NCBI RefSeq assembly: GCF_040581405.1
Contig: NZ_CP137157.1
Coordinates: 1,900,001 to 1,964,000, forward strand
Reading direction: 5' to 3'
Length of the DNA: 64,000 bases
Source: Komagataeibacter sucrofermentans DSM 15973
Lineage (GTDB): Bacteria > Pseudomonadota > Alphaproteobacteria > Acetobacterales > Acetobacteraceae
The notes beneath the pieces are model-generated. The model was not told where the DNA came from and made no database searches. It worked only from the letters and a program-made list of their open reading frames with translations. Below are positions 30,109-35,906 of this stretch, piece after piece (positions within the stretch are counted from its first letter, which is position 1; each line of letters opens with the position of its first letter). Position numbers and translations under genes: made by a program.

Positions 30109-31005
30109 TTATGGCCTGCGTTTGCTTGAGGTCGGGGTTGCCGCAGGCGCAGCAAAAGGATCGGCAACCGAGGCCGTCCCTGCCAGTTTGGCCCACTGGT
30201 CGGCTGCTGTCGTATCCCCGGCCTGCCGTGCACTCTGGCTGGCACGCGCATAAAGCTGGGCCGCAGCCTGTGCATTGCCCGCCCTGGTGGCCGCGCGGGC
30301 GGCGACGCCAAGGGCGCGGGCCATATCACGGTAATGCACCTGTGTCTGGCGAATGGTCGCGGCCTGCAGCGCATCCTGCCAGGCGGTCTGGGCGCTGCCG
30401 CCGGTAGCCAGCAGGTTGCGGGCCGCCATTTCCTTGGCGTCGGCGCTCCAGCTATCGGGCAGCTTGCCGGTCAGCGTCTCGAAATATGCCGCGACCGAGG
30501 CCAGGGTTGCGTCATCCCCGCTCTCATCGGCAATCAGCCCACGGATGAACTGGCCTTTTTCCGCAATGTCGGGGTCCTGTGCGCCAGCGGCAAGGGCGGC
30601 CTGTTTCGCGGCTTCCGCCTCGCGGCCCAGCCGGTGCAGCGCACCGGCCTGCACCAGGTCCAGCCCCGTATCATCTGCTGCCTGCCCGCGCAGCGCCAGC
30701 GCCGCGCGGGTTGAGGTAATGGTAGCCAGTGCATCCTGCGGCTTGTTTTCATCAAGCTGCACGGTGGCCAGATTATAGCCTGCATCGCCTATGGCCGTTA
30801 CGTCATCACGCGCTACGGCACGCTGGCCTGCCGCGCGGTACTGCTGCTCGGCCACGGCAAGGCGGTCAAGCCCCACGGCATCGCGCCCGGTATCCATATC
30901 CTGCGACAAGGTGCTGTCCGTCGGGGGGGCGGGCGTCTGTGCCCCGCCGCAGGCGGCAAGGACGAGTGCCAGACCCAGTGCCGCATAGTCTTTTTTCATC
31001 TTCAT
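30109..31005 (-). CDS. Lipoprotein with helical repeats, partner of MCE transport genes
   Basis: The N-terminus is a lipoprotein signal peptide with the LAAC lipobox, so Cys19 should be acylated. The rest is Ala/Gln-rich and helical, with TPR-like spacing (repeats of about 35 residues between about 40 and 285) and a Pro-rich tail. The usual auxiliary lipoprotein of MCE systems (PqiC type) has a different, beta-rich fold, so this is a different kind of accessory. It is the last gene of a five-gene coupled operon; its ATG overlaps the stop of the MCE gene. A periplasmic docking role is inferred. Confidence 0.6.
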   Translation of the reverse strand: MKMKKDYAALGLALVLAACGGAQTPAPPTDSTLSQDMDTGRDAVGLDRLAVAEQQYRAAGQRAVARDDVTAIGDAGYNLATVQLDENKPQDALATITSTRAALALRGQAADDTGLDLVQAGALHRLGREAEAAKQAALAAGAQDPDIAEKGQFIRGLIADESGDDATLASVAAYFETLTGKLPDSWSADAKEMAARNLLATGGSAQTAWQDALQAATIRQTQVHYRDMARALGVAARAATRAGNAQAAAQLYARASQSARQAGDTTAADQWAKLAGTASVADPFAAPAATPTSSKRRP

Positions 31006-31952
31006 GGCTGCACCTTCTGCGCGGGAAGACGGGCATGCCCTTTCTTCACCTTGTTACCACTGCCGCCGAGCAGCCACATGCCCCGCATCTGGTCAACCAG
31101 CTTCTGCAGGCTGCTGGCCGTGGTCTGGGCCTGCACCAGAAGCACCGGGAGCTGCTGGCTGGCATCCTTGAGGTTGCTGGTAATGGCGGGTGTTGCGTTA
31201 CTCAGGTCGCCCGTCGCCTTCTGCACGTTACTCATCGAGGCGCTGGCCTTGTCCATCACGACGGCAAGCTGCTTCTCGATCGGGGTCAACTGGCTGACCG
31301 TGGCATCAAGGCTGGTGATCATCTGTTCCGCCTGGCGGATCAGGTCATCATTGGTCATGAGCCGCCCGATCGAGCCCTTACCCGCATGCATGTCGGTAAT
31401 GGTGGCATCGAGCGTTGCCATCATGTGCTGGGCGTTATCAAGCACCGGGATCACGCGGTCGCGGATGTCGCTGAAGGTCTGGGTAATGGTATCGGCCGGG
31501 TTGGGCGCGTTGGTGGCGCTGAGCACGGCGTAGCTCCAGTCCAGCTTCTCGCCCACGCCACGCGAGATGTCGATATAGCTCGCCCCCGCCACCACGAAGC
31601 GCTTGCGGATGATGGCCGTGCTGTCATGGCGGATATAGGGTTCGATGTCAGGATCGATCTCGGCAACGGCGTACATGCCGCCCGAAGGGTTGATGCGCAC
31701 GCGGCGCACCGTGCCCGCGTGGATGCCCATCACCTCAAGGTCATCGCCAACAGCAAGGCCACTCACCCCGTTTTCTGGCAGCACGATGCGCAGCCTGCCC
31801 GCGGGGGTGAGCCAGTCGCGCAGCACGCCGGCCTCGATCACCGCGCCAAACAGGATGACCAGGGCAACCAGAACAAGGATGCCTACCCATTCATCGGCGT
31901 AACGGACGCGCACAAGCTGCCGGATTCCGTCTGACTGTTGTTTCTGCACCAT
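31002..31952 (-). CDS. MlaD-type MCE domain protein
   Basis: One transmembrane helix (residues about 22-42, WVGILVLVALVILFG) anchors the protein. It is followed by a single MCE domain (about 50-145) with the LRIVLPENGVSGLAVGDDLEV and GIHAGTVRRVRI strands. The C-terminal half is a long helical region rich in Gln and Ser that could form the tubular stalk seen in MCE hexamers. MCE proteins shuttle phospholipids or other hydrophobic molecules across the periplasm. Its ATG overlaps the last base of the ATPase-like gene, and its stop overlaps the lipoprotein start. Confidence 0.85.
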   Translation of the reverse strand: MVQKQQSDGIRQLVRVRYADEWVGILVLVALVILFGAVIEAGVLRDWLTPAGRLRIVLPENGVSGLAVGDDLEVMGIHAGTVRRVRINPSGGMYAVAEIDPDIEPYIRHDSTAIIRKRFVVAGASYIDISRGVGEKLDWSYAVLSATNAPNPADTITQTFSDIRDRVIPVLDNAQHMMATLDATITDMHAGKGSIGRLMTNDDLIRQAEQMITSLDATVSQLTPIEKQLAVVMDKASASMSNVQKATGDLSNATPAITSNLKDASQQLPVLLVQAQTTASSLQKLVDQMRGMWLLGGSGNKVKKGHARLPAQKVQP

Positions 31953-32647
31953 TACACCACCCGCAGGGAAAAAAGACCTTCGTCGAGAAGGCGCATGTGG
32001 ATATTCACCGCCTTGCGATATTCATGCCACGCCGCAGAGGAGCGGACGAACCACAGCACCCCGCAGCCACGGTCGCGCGCGGCGGTCATCGTTTCAAAAA
32101 ACGGCAGGACCGTCTCTTCTGGCAGCATGTCGGAAATATCTTCCAGTATCAGCAGGTCAGGCCGCCCCATGAAGGCGCGCACGCAGGCCGCCCGCGCCAG
32201 ATCCGCGCCTGAAAGCCGGTCTGGCGCGGTAATGGGCAGGCCGGGAAAGCCGAATGTATGCCCAAGCTCGGTTGCGCGATGCACCACATTCTCGAACGGG
32301 TCCGTCGTATGGTACAGGTGTGGCAGCATGATGTTGAGATGCGTGCCGAACAGGCTCAGCCAGCTACCGTGGCGCGAGATACGGCCAATACGCCCGCGCA
32401 GCGCGTTGAGCTGCCGGTCATGCAGCGTGCTCCAGTCCAGCCCCATGAACTTGATGCTGCCCTGCGTGAGCGGGATCATGCCGGTGCACAGATCAGCGAA
32501 CATGGCGGCGCGCTCAAAATCACGGCAGTCGATCACCGCGCATTCACCCGGCATGATGCGCAGGTTGTAGGGCGCGGGCATGAGGCCGCTTTCATCGAAC
32601 GAGGGTACGGCGTCGCGTAGTTCCAGCAGGGGCGCGTTTGCTGCCAT
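31952..32647 (-). CDS. Degenerate ABC ATPase-like subunit (MlaF-type pseudo-NBD)
   Basis: The 231-residue protein has the overall layout of an MlaF-like ATPase: GECAVI strand near residue 35, an LSGADLARAA signature-like helix near 145 and an LLILEDIS strand near 170. The Walker A loop is missing: where GxSGxGKST is expected the sequence reads DCRDFERAA, so the glycines, lysine and serine/threonine are all lost. In Walker B the DE pair appears as ED. The frame is intact and lies tightly between permease and MCE genes, so the gene is probably functional but unable to hydrolyse ATP in the usual way. It might recruit another ATPase or act structurally. Confidence 0.75.
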   Translation of the reverse strand: MAANAPLLELRDAVPSFDESGLMPAPYNLRIMPGECAVIDCRDFERAAMFADLCTGMIPLTQGSIKFMGLDWSTLHDRQLNALRGRIGRISRHGSWLSLFGTHLNIMLPHLYHTTDPFENVVHRATELGHTFGFPGLPITAPDRLSGADLARAACVRAFMGRPDLLILEDISDMLPEETVLPFFETMTAARDRGCGVLWFVRSSAAWHEYRKAVNIHMRLLDEGLFSLRVV

Positions 32648-32649
32648 GG

Positions 32650-33546
32650 TCAGAAATCCAGCATGAAGAGGATATTGACCACCAGCACCAGCATGATCCC
32701 GCGGGCGAAGCCGCGCGGCATGATGGTGGCCATCGTATCGTTACTGCTTACGGTCAGCCCCGAAATGCACGCCCCCAGCCCGACAAAGAAACCGACCAGC
32801 ACGAATTTGAGCGGGATGATGAGGTAATCCCACGTGGTCATGGCCGCCAGCACGTTGAAAAAGAACGTCCAGACCGAGGACGTGATGGCCCCGCTGGCAT
32901 GCGCCACCACAAAACCCATGAGCAGCGACACGACCGCAAAGATCATGCCCAGCGTAAAGCCCCCCACCGTAAAGGCGAAGGTGCGCGGCATGACCAGTGC
33001 AAGGAAAGGGTCGATGCCACGCGCCTGCAGGCCGCGCACCTCGCCGCCCAGCACCATCATGCCGATCTCGGTCAGCGACAGCATGCCGCTGCGGCCCATC
33101 AGGATGATGCCGACAAGAATGGGCGAGATTTCACGCACCAGCACCGAGACCAGGATCGAACCCGTCATCTGCGCCATGCCAGCATAACCCAGCCAGTATG
33201 CCGCCTGCGACACGACCATGAGGCCCGCAAGCGTGGCCGTAATGACAATGCTCAGGAAACCGCCGCCAATCACCTGCCGCAAGGTGGCGCGGAATTCATA
33301 GATGACAGGCCTGCGCCATGAATTGGGGCGCAGGCTCTCGCGCAGCGTGCCCCATCCGGCCCCGATCAGCAGCAGCGTGAAGCGGACCTGATGGCGCGTC
33401 AGCCGCCCGATGGCGGCAAGCCATGGCGCAAAACGCCCGATCAGCGTGGCGAAGCGGCCCGTATCCTTGCTGTCCTCTGGCGGGGCCATCTGGGCCAGCA
33501 CGCTCGAGGCCTGCTGCTCGGGCGGCGGGGGCGAGGTGTCGGTCAT
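32650..33546 (-). CDS. MlaE family ABC permease
   Basis: This 298-residue MlaE/YrbE permease starts with a cytoplasmic Pro/Gln-rich tail (1-45) and then five or so hydrophobic segments. The family's interfacial helix (YEFRATLRQVIGGG), the LVREISPILVGIILMGRSG coupling region and the RTFAF segment near 205 are visible. In Mla systems this subunit forms the membrane channel for lipid between ATPase and MCE ring. It overlaps the sensor gene's stop (ATGA) and is followed by the pseudo-NBD after 2 bases. Confidence 0.88.
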   Translation of the reverse strand: MTDTSPPPPEQQASSVLAQMAPPEDSKDTGRFATLIGRFAPWLAAIGRLTRHQVRFTLLLIGAGWGTLRESLRPNSWRRPVIYEFRATLRQVIGGGFLSIVITATLAGLMVVSQAAYWLGYAGMAQMTGSILVSVLVREISPILVGIILMGRSGMLSLTEIGMMVLGGEVRGLQARGIDPFLALVMPRTFAFTVGGFTLGMIFAVVSLLMGFVVAHASGAITSSVWTFFFNVLAAMTTWDYLIIPLKFVLVGFFVGLGACISGLTVSSNDTMATIMPRGFARGIMLVLVVNILFMLDF

Positions 33547-35906
33547 CGCCGCCCGGCCAGCACGTAGGTGCGCGTCAGCCCCGCGCCGGGAATGAAGAAG
33601 CGCCCGCGCTCACGGAACAGGAAGTTCTGGCGCAGCTGGTGATAGACATCCTCCGTGACCTGAATGGTGCCGACATCGGGCGCGCCCTGCGCCATCATCT
33701 CGGCCATGCCCATGGCATCGCCCCACAGGTTGAAGGCCTGCGGCGCCTTGCCCAGCATGCCACCAAAGACAGGCCCGACATCGATGCCGATGCGGAAGAC
33801 AGGGTCGAGATCTTCCTTCGCCAGCACGGCCAGCGTGTTTTCACGCATCATCAGCGCCGCGTTGGCCATGCGAAAGACGGCCCCCTTGTCGGGCGTGCGC
33901 GAGCAACCGGCCACGCACACCACGCGGTGGCCAAGCATGCGGATGGAGAACAGCCCGCACTGCCGGGCAATATCCTGCAGCATGCCCGCCATCGCATCAA
34001 TCAGCTTGAGGTTGGCCATCGGGTCGTTCTGGGCCGTCATGACAATATCCGACAGGCTGATGACCATGATGGCCACGGCGGGGAAGAACCCTTCCATGTT
34101 GGCCAGGTCCTGCGCCGAAGGCTGGCCGTTCATGCCCAGGCTGCCGGGCGTGAGCAGGAAGCCCTGGCTGGCGTCATGCGGCACTTCATCGGACGAAGGC
34201 TCGGATTCCAGTTCCTCGCGCGCGGCGGCGACCGCCGTATAGTGCTGCGCGGAGAAGCGTGCCGCCGTAACGCCTGCCACCATTTCCACAAAATGGGAGA
34301 CTACCTGCGCCCGCGGCGCATCCTCAAGCGTGATAACACCCACCGGGCCACTGCTGCCCGGAATGGGGCTGCAGAACAGCGTCCTGCTGCCAAACGAGCG
34401 CATGTAGACGCGGTAGAACGCTCCCACCCGTTCATCGGCTGCGGCATTTTCAGTTGTCAGCACGTCACCATGCGCGACGGCATCAAAGAAGGTCTTGAGG
34501 TCGGTGGTGGCCATTTCGAAGCCACCGGAATGCACATCCTGCTGCCGGTCGTAGGAATCGATGCACATCAGCGTGTGCCCATCATGCAGGATGCGCCAGA
34601 TGGCGGCACGGCGGGCATGGGACTGGTCGGCCAGCGTCTCGGTCAGGAGCAGGGCGTTATCTTCGGGGTTGAACAGGTCCGGGTAGGTTGCGACCGTTTG
34701 CAGGGCATGGCTCTCGTAATTGGCCACATTACGCGACTGCGCGATCTGCGCGCGCATGCGGTCGGCCCGGCGCGCCTGAAGGAACAGAAGCAGCCCCAGC
34801 CCCGAGGCCAGTATCACGACCAGCACGGTAAAGAGCAGGTTCTGCCGCCCATCCGCCATGGCGAATTGTGAGAAATCATCCTCCGGCGCGACGAGCAGCA
34901 GCACCCAGCTATCGGTGCCAACCGGCAGGTTGGCCGTGATGGTGACGTAGTTCTTGCCCTTTACCTTGACCGTGCGCGCGCCATCGCCATGCACGCGATA
35001 TTCATCAAACGCTTTGGTCATGACCGGAAAGTGCTTCGGGTCAAGCTTCATCCTGTCGGGGTCGCCGCCCGCGGCGGCCTCGGCCTCCTGCATGCCATGA
35101 CCTGCGAGCACATGCCCGTCGCGGTCCATCAGGATGGCGTTGCCGCTTTCGCCAATGCGCAGGGAATTGAGGAATTTGTTCAGATGCGCCAGCGACATGT
35201 TGATGGCATAGACATAGGTCTTGTCATCCTGCCCCTTATAGGGAATGGCCGCCGTAATCGTAAGCTGCCGGGTCACTTCCACGATATAGGGGTGGGTCCA
35301 GTGCAGTTGCCCTTCCTTGACCGTATCGGCAAACCAGGCATGGCCGCGCGGGTCATAGCTGCCAGCCGGGGTCTGCCACTGCCTGAGCACCTTACCGTTG
35401 GCGTCACGCAGTTCATGGGTGAAGATGGGCGGCTTGTCCGCCTGCCTGACCAGGGTGGTCAGGGCCACCTGCTGGTCGTTCTCGCCATGTTCGAGCGTGC
35501 TGAAATTGCCATCGCCATCAGCGATATAGAAGGACTGGATCTGCGGCACGTTGCGCAGCATGGTGCTGCTGTAGCCCATGAATATCTTCTGTTCCACCGC
35601 GGGCGCGCCATGTTCGAGCATGTCACGCGCCACCACGCTGCCAGCCGATGCCGGGGCGAGGAAGGAATTGACTTCCTTGGCGATGTAATCCTGCTGGCTG
35701 ACCAGCAGTTCATGCGTCAGGGCAAGCGCTCCGGTGCGCACCGTGCGGTAGGAGTGCCAGCCAAAGCCTGCGATGAGGGCAATGATGCTCACCACGCCCG
35801 CCACGGGCACGCCCACGTGCAGCAGGAAACGCTTGACCTGATCGGAAGGGGCAATCGTGGGATCGACAATCTCGTCCGTGGACAATGCTCTCTTCCTGTT
35901 CAACAC
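33543..35906 (-). CDS. Cache-GAF sensor with degenerate class III cyclase domain
   Basis: The 787-residue membrane sensor has a helix at about 28-50, an extracytoplasmic double-Cache-like domain (about 60-335), a second helix near 350-375, a GAF-like domain (about 395-545) and a C-terminal class III cyclase domain (about 610-785). In the cyclase part the fold elements GIDVGPVFGG and NLWGDAM are kept. The first metal-Asp position aligns with Ser (VISLSD), the second reads GH instead of GD, and the catalytic Asn/Arg segment reads AMGMAEMM instead of VNxxxR. Cyclase activity is therefore doubtful. It is the first gene of a coupled operon with MlaE, pseudo-NBD, MCE and lipoprotein genes. Confidence 0.75.
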   Translation of the reverse strand: MLNRKRALSTDEIVDPTIAPSDQVKRFLLHVGVPVAGVVSIIALIAGFGWHSYRTVRTGALALTHELLVSQQDYIAKEVNSFLAPASAGSVVARDMLEHGAPAVEQKIFMGYSSTMLRNVPQIQSFYIADGDGNFSTLEHGENDQQVALTTLVRQADKPPIFTHELRDANGKVLRQWQTPAGSYDPRGHAWFADTVKEGQLHWTHPYIVEVTRQLTITAAIPYKGQDDKTYVYAINMSLAHLNKFLNSLRIGESGNAILMDRDGHVLAGHGMQEAEAAAGGDPDRMKLDPKHFPVMTKAFDEYRVHGDGARTVKVKGKNYVTITANLPVGTDSWVLLLVAPEDDFSQFAMADGRQNLLFTVLVVILASGLGLLLFLQARRADRMRAQIAQSRNVANYESHALQTVATYPDLFNPEDNALLLTETLADQSHARRAAIWRILHDGHTLMCIDSYDRQQDVHSGGFEMATTDLKTFFDAVAHGDVLTTENAAADERVGAFYRVYMRSFGSRTLFCSPIPGSSGPVGVITLEDAPRAQVVSHFVEMVAGVTAARFSAQHYTAVAAAREELESEPSSDEVPHDASQGFLLTPGSLGMNGQPSAQDLANMEGFFPAVAIMVISLSDIVMTAQNDPMANLKLIDAMAGMLQDIARQCGLFSIRMLGHRVVCVAGCSRTPDKGAVFRMANAALMMRENTLAVLAKEDLDPVFRIGIDVGPVFGGMLGKAPQAFNLWGDAMGMAEMMAQGAPDVGTIQVTEDVYHQLRQNFLFRERGRFFIPGAGLTRTYVLAGRR

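Follow-up and report, generated by a model that had tools for sequence, protein, structure and literature searches.

How ATP hydrolysis drives lipid transport by MCE systems, and in which direction the lipid moves, is a standing question, and the locus described here poses it as a natural experiment: how does an MCE system work when the chemistry of its ATPase has gone and the subunit that carried it has been kept? The locus is a cassette of five genes in Komagataeibacter sucrofermentans DSM 15973, located on the minus strand at 30109-35906 of a 64,000-nucleotide stretch of contig NZ_CP137157.1 (positions 1,900,001 to 1,964,000; this whole stretch is called the window below). In translation order, the genes encode a receptor, or sensor, an MlaE-family permease, an ABC-like subunit that we term pABC (pseudo-ABC subunit), an MCE protein and a lipoprotein. 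We see about an even chance that the cassette encodes an MCE lipid conduit that is independent of ATP hydrolysis and is usually controlled by a receptor composed of Cache, GAF and pseudo-cyclase domains.

33543..35906, minus strand: receptor (sensor), 787 amino acids; Pfam matches to Guanylate_cyc, dCache_1 and GAF
32650..33546, minus strand: MlaE-family permease, 298 amino acids; Pfam match to MlaE (PF02405)
31952..32647, minus strand: pABC, 231 amino acids; weak Pfam match to ABC_tran, together with a motif alignment
31002..31952, minus strand: MCE protein, 316 amino acids; Pfam match to MlaD (PF02470)
30109..31005, minus strand: TPR-like lipoprotein, 298 amino acids; invariant lipobox Cys, with TPR matches in relatives

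The junctions between these genes measure -4, +2, -1 and -4 bases in the same order, in agreement with the first-pass annotation of this DNA, which had described a five-gene operon with every junction overlapping or within 2 bases. Translational coupling of this kind suggests that the five products may be made in a fixed ratio.

Conservation of the cassette

A total of 63 loci, including that of the window, were analysed gene by gene. All five genes are present once each, in the same order and on one strand, in 55 of these, which excludes a chance arrangement. Among the 55 complete loci, 42 have all junctions within -30 to +15 bases, and 47 have a stop/start overlap between the sensor gene and mlaE. 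Three of the eight incomplete loci (L093, L098 and L100) stop at or near a contig end. Split frames occur in L060, where mlaE carries an in-frame stop (genome G142), in L082, where the sensor gene is split (G136), and in L102, a degraded cassette (G126). The lipoprotein gene of L091, which a single-sequence search had missed, was found with a profile. The eighth locus is L047, where a transposase gene stands before pABC.

In a first sample of 150 genomes of the family, pABC was counted from the list of matches in 46, including the window's own genome (E≤1e-20). A search of 250 genomes from the order recovered pABC in 138 (E≤1e-30), the MCE protein in 141 (E≤1e-25) and the sensor in 136 (E≤1e-60). 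All matches listed for these three proteins come from the window's family, Acetobacteraceae, and 30 of 58 sampled genera keep pABC. At these thresholds the sensor accompanies pABC in 136 of 138 genomes and occurs in none of the 112 genomes that lack pABC, so that no sensor without a core was seen in the order. The two genomes with pABC and no sensor are G523 and G553, while G575, G583 and G588 have the MCE protein and no pABC. Co-occurrence was counted per genome by script, with adjacency seen for a part of the genomes; in G597 the sensor and pABC genes lie on different contigs. The first-pass annotation would have been refuted by a sensor that is not conserved beside mlaE in relatives, and these counts do not refute it.

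Across 289 genomes of the class, pABC and the lipoprotein stand out in a single genome outside the family. This genome, G185, belongs to a different alphaproteobacterial family and carries a complete five-gene cassette (L119). G312 and G409, the two further members of its genus in the list, give generic ABC scores and no more, which suggests transfer into G185. Five further class genomes outside the family have weak lipoprotein matches (E 7e-5 to 4.5e-4), and a search with pABC for plasmid-borne copies returned no match. The nearest named relatives of pABC are from Komagataeibacter strains, at 97% identity.

A tree of MlaE proteins, from which twelve cassette rows, mostly near-duplicates, had been removed beforehand, groups the 58 cassette proteins together and separates them from the 22 canonical proteins with a support of 0.87. 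The copy from G185 and the pair from G523 and G553 are nested inside the Acetobacteraceae diversity, with uneven backbone supports of 0.29 to 0.93. We take transfer in G185 and sensor loss in G523 and G553 as no more than suggestions.

Two proteins without their catalytic residues

The pABC subunit is homologous to the nucleotide-binding domain (NBD) of ABC transporters, since its profile (A1) matches MacB, LolD, FtsE and MlaF with E values of 6e-19 to 5e-14. The Pfam ABC_tran model matches the window protein weakly (19.8 bits; cut-off 25) and matches 16 of 29 pABC members at E≤0.01. MacB, LolD and FtsE rank above MlaF in the profile searches, so that a plain decay of MlaF is only one possible origin of pABC within the NBDs.

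We aligned 63 pABC sequences with three intact MlaF-type or related ATPases; L053/L059 and L054/L062 represent the same genomes twice, and L102 is truncated before the place of the Walker A motif. The motif is found in none of the 63 sequences. Its lysine is absent from all 62 that reach this position, 46 of which have Ala instead. Ten further loci (L165-L174), examined with the motif pattern alone, also lack Walker A, which brings the count to 0 of 73 sequences. The corresponding place in the window protein is as follows.

32504..32527, minus strand: place of the missing Walker A motif, pABC residues 41-48, reading CRDFERAA (GGSGTGKS in canonical MlaF)

Other motifs are similarly affected. 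Of the 63 sequences, none has the LSGG signature, 60 carry Glu for the Walker B Asp, nine retain the catalytic Glu and one retains the H-loop His. As a control, MlaF-type ATPases from 22 mlaE loci in 21 genomes of the order, two loci being in the window's genome and 20 in other cassette genomes, carry Walker A in 22 of 22 cases and LSGG in 21 of 22. ATP hydrolysis by the usual mechanism has therefore very probably been lost from pABC, and the earlier description of the energy subunit as inactive is upheld by its motifs.

The protein has nonetheless been maintained. Ratios of nonsynonymous to synonymous substitution (dN/dS) were obtained from 45 pairs of 10 Komagataeibacter loci, and the medians are 0.121 for pABC, 0.125 for mlaE, 0.066 for mce, 0.151 for the lipoprotein gene and 0.159 for the sensor gene, compared with 0.107 for the neighbouring gene dnaQ. 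In Komagataeibacter, pABC is under purifying selection. The former P-loop often carries Cys-Arg-Asp (C in 42, R in 50 and D in 45 of 62 sequences).

A comparable loss is seen in the receptor, which begins with a hydrophobic segment and continues with a periplasmic dCache region, a second hydrophobic segment, a GAF domain and a class III cyclase-like domain. The hydrophobic segments at residues 24-42 and 354-380 flank the dCache region, and a third hydrophobic stretch (604-626) lies at the start of the cyclase domain.

34887..35729, minus strand: dCache region; closest solved relative is the chemoreceptor PctA (5ltx, E 1.8e-13)
34272..34649, minus strand: GAF domain, residues 420-545
33555..34076, minus strand: class III cyclase domain; Asp620 (first metal) kept, His660 in place of the second metal Asp

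The dCache_1 match of the window sensor, at 44.7 bits, is marginally below the cut-off of 45; all 26 aligned sensors match dCache_1 and Guanylate_cyc, and 22 match GAF (E≤0.01). The first-pass annotation had recognized a Cache-GAF membrane sensor, which stands, and had not assigned to this protein the cyclase-like domain at its C terminus or noted the loss of catalytic residues there. This domain gives a nearly full-length class III cyclase match (71.5 bits), and the nearest proteins of solved structure bear the name adenylate cyclase (5o5k, E 2.4e-21; mycobacterial). Among the genome's other proteins, none matches PF00211.

In class III cyclases, two aspartates bind metal, a further Asp reads the base, and an Asn and an Arg act on the transition state. 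In addition to His660, the window protein has Asn726 for the base-reading Asp, Gly733 for the transition-state Asn and Met737 for the Arg. These positions were compared in 60 sensors (58 distinct sequences; the split sensors of L082 and L102 were excluded, and L047 has none). The first metal Asp is present in 41, the second in one, and both in one. The base-reading Asp is found in none, with Asn there in 58, while the transition-state Asn is kept in one and the Arg in four. No sensor retains more than two of the five catalytic residues, and the output domain looks like a catalytically dead pseudo-cyclase.

In its domains the sensor thus resembles class III adenylate cyclases and Cache-containing chemoreceptors, PctA among them, but it lacks the cyclase residues, and Pfam gives no match in it to a chemoreceptor signalling domain or a kinase at E≤1. 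Its ligand pocket was compared at five of the motif positions of PctA-like dCache_1AA amino-acid sensors, as given in the part of the published account used here (PMC10104139), with the Y121 position lying outside the comparison. The residues R, W, Y, Y and D of this motif are kept in six of 12 basal members (L078, L081, L088, L098, L101 and L119). The window sensor has H, W, F, Y and N, with three of the five changed, and this difference from the basal members suggests a change of ligand.

The transport proteins and known MCE systems

The permease matches PF02405 at 115.6 bits (cut-off 22.5). In MlaFEDB, a coupling helix between transmembrane segments 2 and 3 (TM2 and TM3) contacts MlaF, according to the sections of the structural reports used here (PMC7784689, PMC7790496). 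The equivalent stretch was located by reading the alignment.

32983..33069, minus strand: putative coupling-helix stretch of MlaE and the residues that follow

At one position of this stretch, 22 canonical MlaE proteins have Asp (18), Asn (3) or Glu (1), and 56 of 60 cassette proteins have Gly (L060 and L102 were excluded). At a second position, Asp in 21 of 22 canonical proteins is replaced by Arg in 52 of 60 cassette proteins. Replacement of these acidic residues speaks for a cassette permease fitted to pABC rather than to the cell's canonical MlaF, a pairing that we consider likely. No STAS match was found in the five cassette proteins at E≤1, a STAS protein encoded elsewhere not having been searched for; the MlaE of L104, another locus of the same genome, served as control and matches STAS_2 at 0.00021. 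All 38 cassette genomes tested contain at least one further MlaE-family match, and two intact ATPases of the MlaF type are encoded next to the other mlaE genes of the window's genome.

The MCE protein combines a single hydrophobic anchor at residues 16-48 with a single MCE domain (PF02470, 40.1 bits; cut-off 25.1) and a long C-terminal region.

31557..31766, minus strand: MCE (MlaD) domain, residues 63-132

The lipobox cysteine of the lipoprotein (Cys19) is invariant in all 17 aligned sequences. In the window protein no significant Pfam family was found and no TPR model matched, while TPR_2 matches six of the 17 lipoproteins, and the lipoprotein profile finds solved TPR proteins with weak E values. 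The PqiC-type family PF03886 is matched by none of the 17 at E≤0.01, and the L104 lipoprotein, used as control, matches it at 7.6e-29. These results accord with the original suggestion of a helical-repeat lipoprotein that is not of the PqiC type, and we hold the helical-repeat assignment with moderate confidence.

The closest likeness is to Mpc (MpcEFDA), a Mla-Pqi chimera of Hyphomicrobiales, which is compared here from the portions of its description that we used (PMC12436622). Both systems have MlaE, an ABC-type subunit, a long single-MCE protein and a lipoprotein, in one operon without a gene for MlaC or MlaA. The Mpc MCE protein, of about 330 amino acids, has an extended helical C-terminal region, and the cassette protein, of 316 amino acids, appears similar in its long C-terminal region. 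However, Mpc is a well-conserved transporter with an ATPase homologous to MlaF, whereas the cassette's ABC subunit lacks ATPase motifs. Mpc also has STAS on its permease and a PqiC-type lipoprotein, in contrast to the absence of a STAS match, the TPR-like lipoprotein and the receptor of the cassette. An Mpc-like locus, L104, is present in the window's own genome, with STAS-MlaE, an ABC protein with intact Walker A, an MCE protein and a PF03886 lipoprotein.

PqiAB and LetAB operate without an ATPase, and in these systems lipid may move down its gradient or by another source of energy. PqiA and LetA are unrelated integral proteins, and the cassette, unlike PqiABC and LetAB, retains the ABC architecture. 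What the cassette has in common with PqiABC is an MCE conduit without a working ATPase and a lipoprotein at the outer end, as far as the consulted part of that study describes it (PMC10897342). With MlaFEDB it shares an MlaE-family permease, an NBD-like partner and an MCE protein; in the extracts used, MlaF is described with two active sites, and the E170Q mutation lowers its ATPase activity by about 80%, whereas the cassette subunit lacks the motifs and no MlaB-like STAS protein is among the five (PMC7784689, PMC7790496). The first-pass annotation knew of no MCE system of this composition, and among top-ranked results in the open-licence literature we likewise found no description of one whose ATPase is dead or to which a receptor is linked.

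A candidate mechanism and its alternatives

The sequences themselves show the composition and conservation of the cassette, the loss of catalytic residues from both pABC and the sensor, purifying selection within Komagataeibacter, and a permease whose coupling helix departs from that of canonical MlaE. The lipid cargo and the direction of transport we infer. By analogy with MlaFEDB and Mpc, the inner membrane would hold an MlaE dimer, the periplasm would be spanned by a hexameric MCE tube and the TPR-like lipoprotein would stand at the outer-membrane end of this tube. Below the membrane, a predicted pABC dimer would grip the coupling helices of MlaE, with the usual binding and hydrolysis of ATP apparently impossible, such that an ABC motor would have been turned into a non-hydrolysing scaffold of a lipid-trafficking MCE system. 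Lipid may then move down its gradient or use another energy source; passive movement, proton-driven movement and ATP from a borrowed MlaF are possible, the last being the least likely.

The receptor, translationally coupled to the permease in most genomes, could provide control. Its dead cyclase dimer would most likely work on the pABC-MlaE core through a change of shape or through docking, replacing both ATP and the STAS regulator of Mla, and a periplasmic ligand may open or close the conduit through it. We lean, if not strongly, towards the five products forming one complex, and are somewhat more doubtful than confident that the receptor gates the conduit. More tentative still is the full proposal of a signal-gated, ATP-free ABC architecture, in which the dead cyclase dimer of a receptor for a periplasmic ligand replaces the ATP cycle in the opening and closing of an MlaE-MCE lipid bridge, the two pseudoenzymes form one conformational relay, and side branches have lost either the receptor or the entire core in the membrane.

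Several observations weigh against an ATP-independent, receptor-controlled conduit. G523 and G553, which belong to one genus (loci L170 and L172), carry mlaE, pABC, mce and the lipoprotein gene without a sensor, and neither genome has a sensor match anywhere at E≤1e-10. Gating by the sensor thus cannot be essential to the core, nor can the sensor be an obligatory structural part everywhere. The earlier proposal of a sensor inside the complex is borne out as to conserved linkage and is not established as to membership. Four genomes have MCE and lipoprotein genes as a free-standing pair, beside which neither mlaE nor a gene for an ABC subunit or sensor was found.

L161:5281-7097: MCE and TPR-like lipoprotein pair
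L162:3623-5517: MCE and TPR-like lipoprotein pair
L163:5340-7411: MCE and TPR-like lipoprotein pair
L164:3634-5489: MCE and TPR-like lipoprotein pair

Judged by eye, the MCE N terminus in L161, L162 and L164 resembles a signal peptide that replaces the long anchor. In three of the pair-bearing genomes (G575, G583 and G588), neither pABC nor the sensor was matched at the thresholds given above, and the fourth, G596, also has a full cassette. Together with the sensorless cores, these pairs indicate that the MCE-lipoprotein pair can stand alone and that the core can lack the sensor. Furthermore, the additional MlaE-family matches in all 38 genomes tested suggest that an active MlaF-type ATPase, seen in 21, is probably available in the cell. 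Finally, the figures for purifying selection come from the single genus Komagataeibacter.

The presence of such ATPases, including the two intact ones in the window's genome, would be expected if pABC were the degenerate partner, in a heterodimer, of an active MlaF from another locus, leaving transport ATP driven. Asymmetric NBD pairs exist, and PatAB is an example in the excerpts used. However, because pABC lacks both Walker A and LSGG (0 of 63 each), neither composite ATP site of a mixed dimer would be intact, and the cassette MlaE has lost the canonical acidic residues of its coupling helix; we regard this arrangement as unlikely. It is much less probable again that pABC binds and hydrolyses ATP through unusual residues. 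A near-invariant Asp at signature position 5 (62 of 62) and an Arg following the Q-loop Gly (62 of 63) could represent conserved new chemistry, although they could equally belong to an interface, and the universal absence of the Walker A Lys and the rarity of the catalytic Glu and H-loop His led us to reject this reading.

A more serious competitor, though still an improbable one, treats the sensor as a signalling protein in its own right, which has another target and shares only a transcript with a transporter working independently of it. The sensorless cassettes and the solitary MCE-lipoprotein pairs, one of them in a genome with a full cassette, fit this explanation, but the almost strict co-occurrence of sensor and pABC and the frequent stop/start overlap with mlaE do not, and an output domain that looks dead as an enzyme leaves no evident separate output. 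An active nucleotide cyclase, which the nearly full-length domain and its adenylate cyclase relatives might suggest, is highly improbable and was rejected on the scarcity of catalytic residues across the 60 sensors. Equally hard to credit, and if anything more so, is a decaying, useless locus. The degraded cassette of G126, the split frames of L060 and L082 and a transposase before pABC in L047 are what decay would produce, but the median dN/dS of 0.07-0.16 over the five genes, on which this reading was rejected, and the open frames in the majority of the divergent genera examined are not.

If the ATP-independent, receptor-controlled conduit is correct, the lipids of vinegar bacteria and related organisms may travel by another route, under the control of a signal, and a second-messenger enzyme domain would seem to have been retained only for its shape. 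The cassette offers an MlaE-MCE system with its ATPase chemistry gone and the subunit kept, in culturable vinegar bacteria, and the window's genome supplies internal controls in its canonical Mla-type genes and its Mpc-like locus.

Upstream of the cassette, on the same strand, is an exonuclease-domain gene, taken as dnaQ, beyond which lie frames that we assume to be coaE and aroE from their resemblance. A sulfate-permease-family gene is located downstream on the opposite strand. In L047 (Komagataeibacter europaeus LMG 18890), an IS110-type transposase gene at 1-1286 directly precedes pABC, with the contig ending inside it; this transposase is also found on Acetobacter and Komagataeibacter plasmids.

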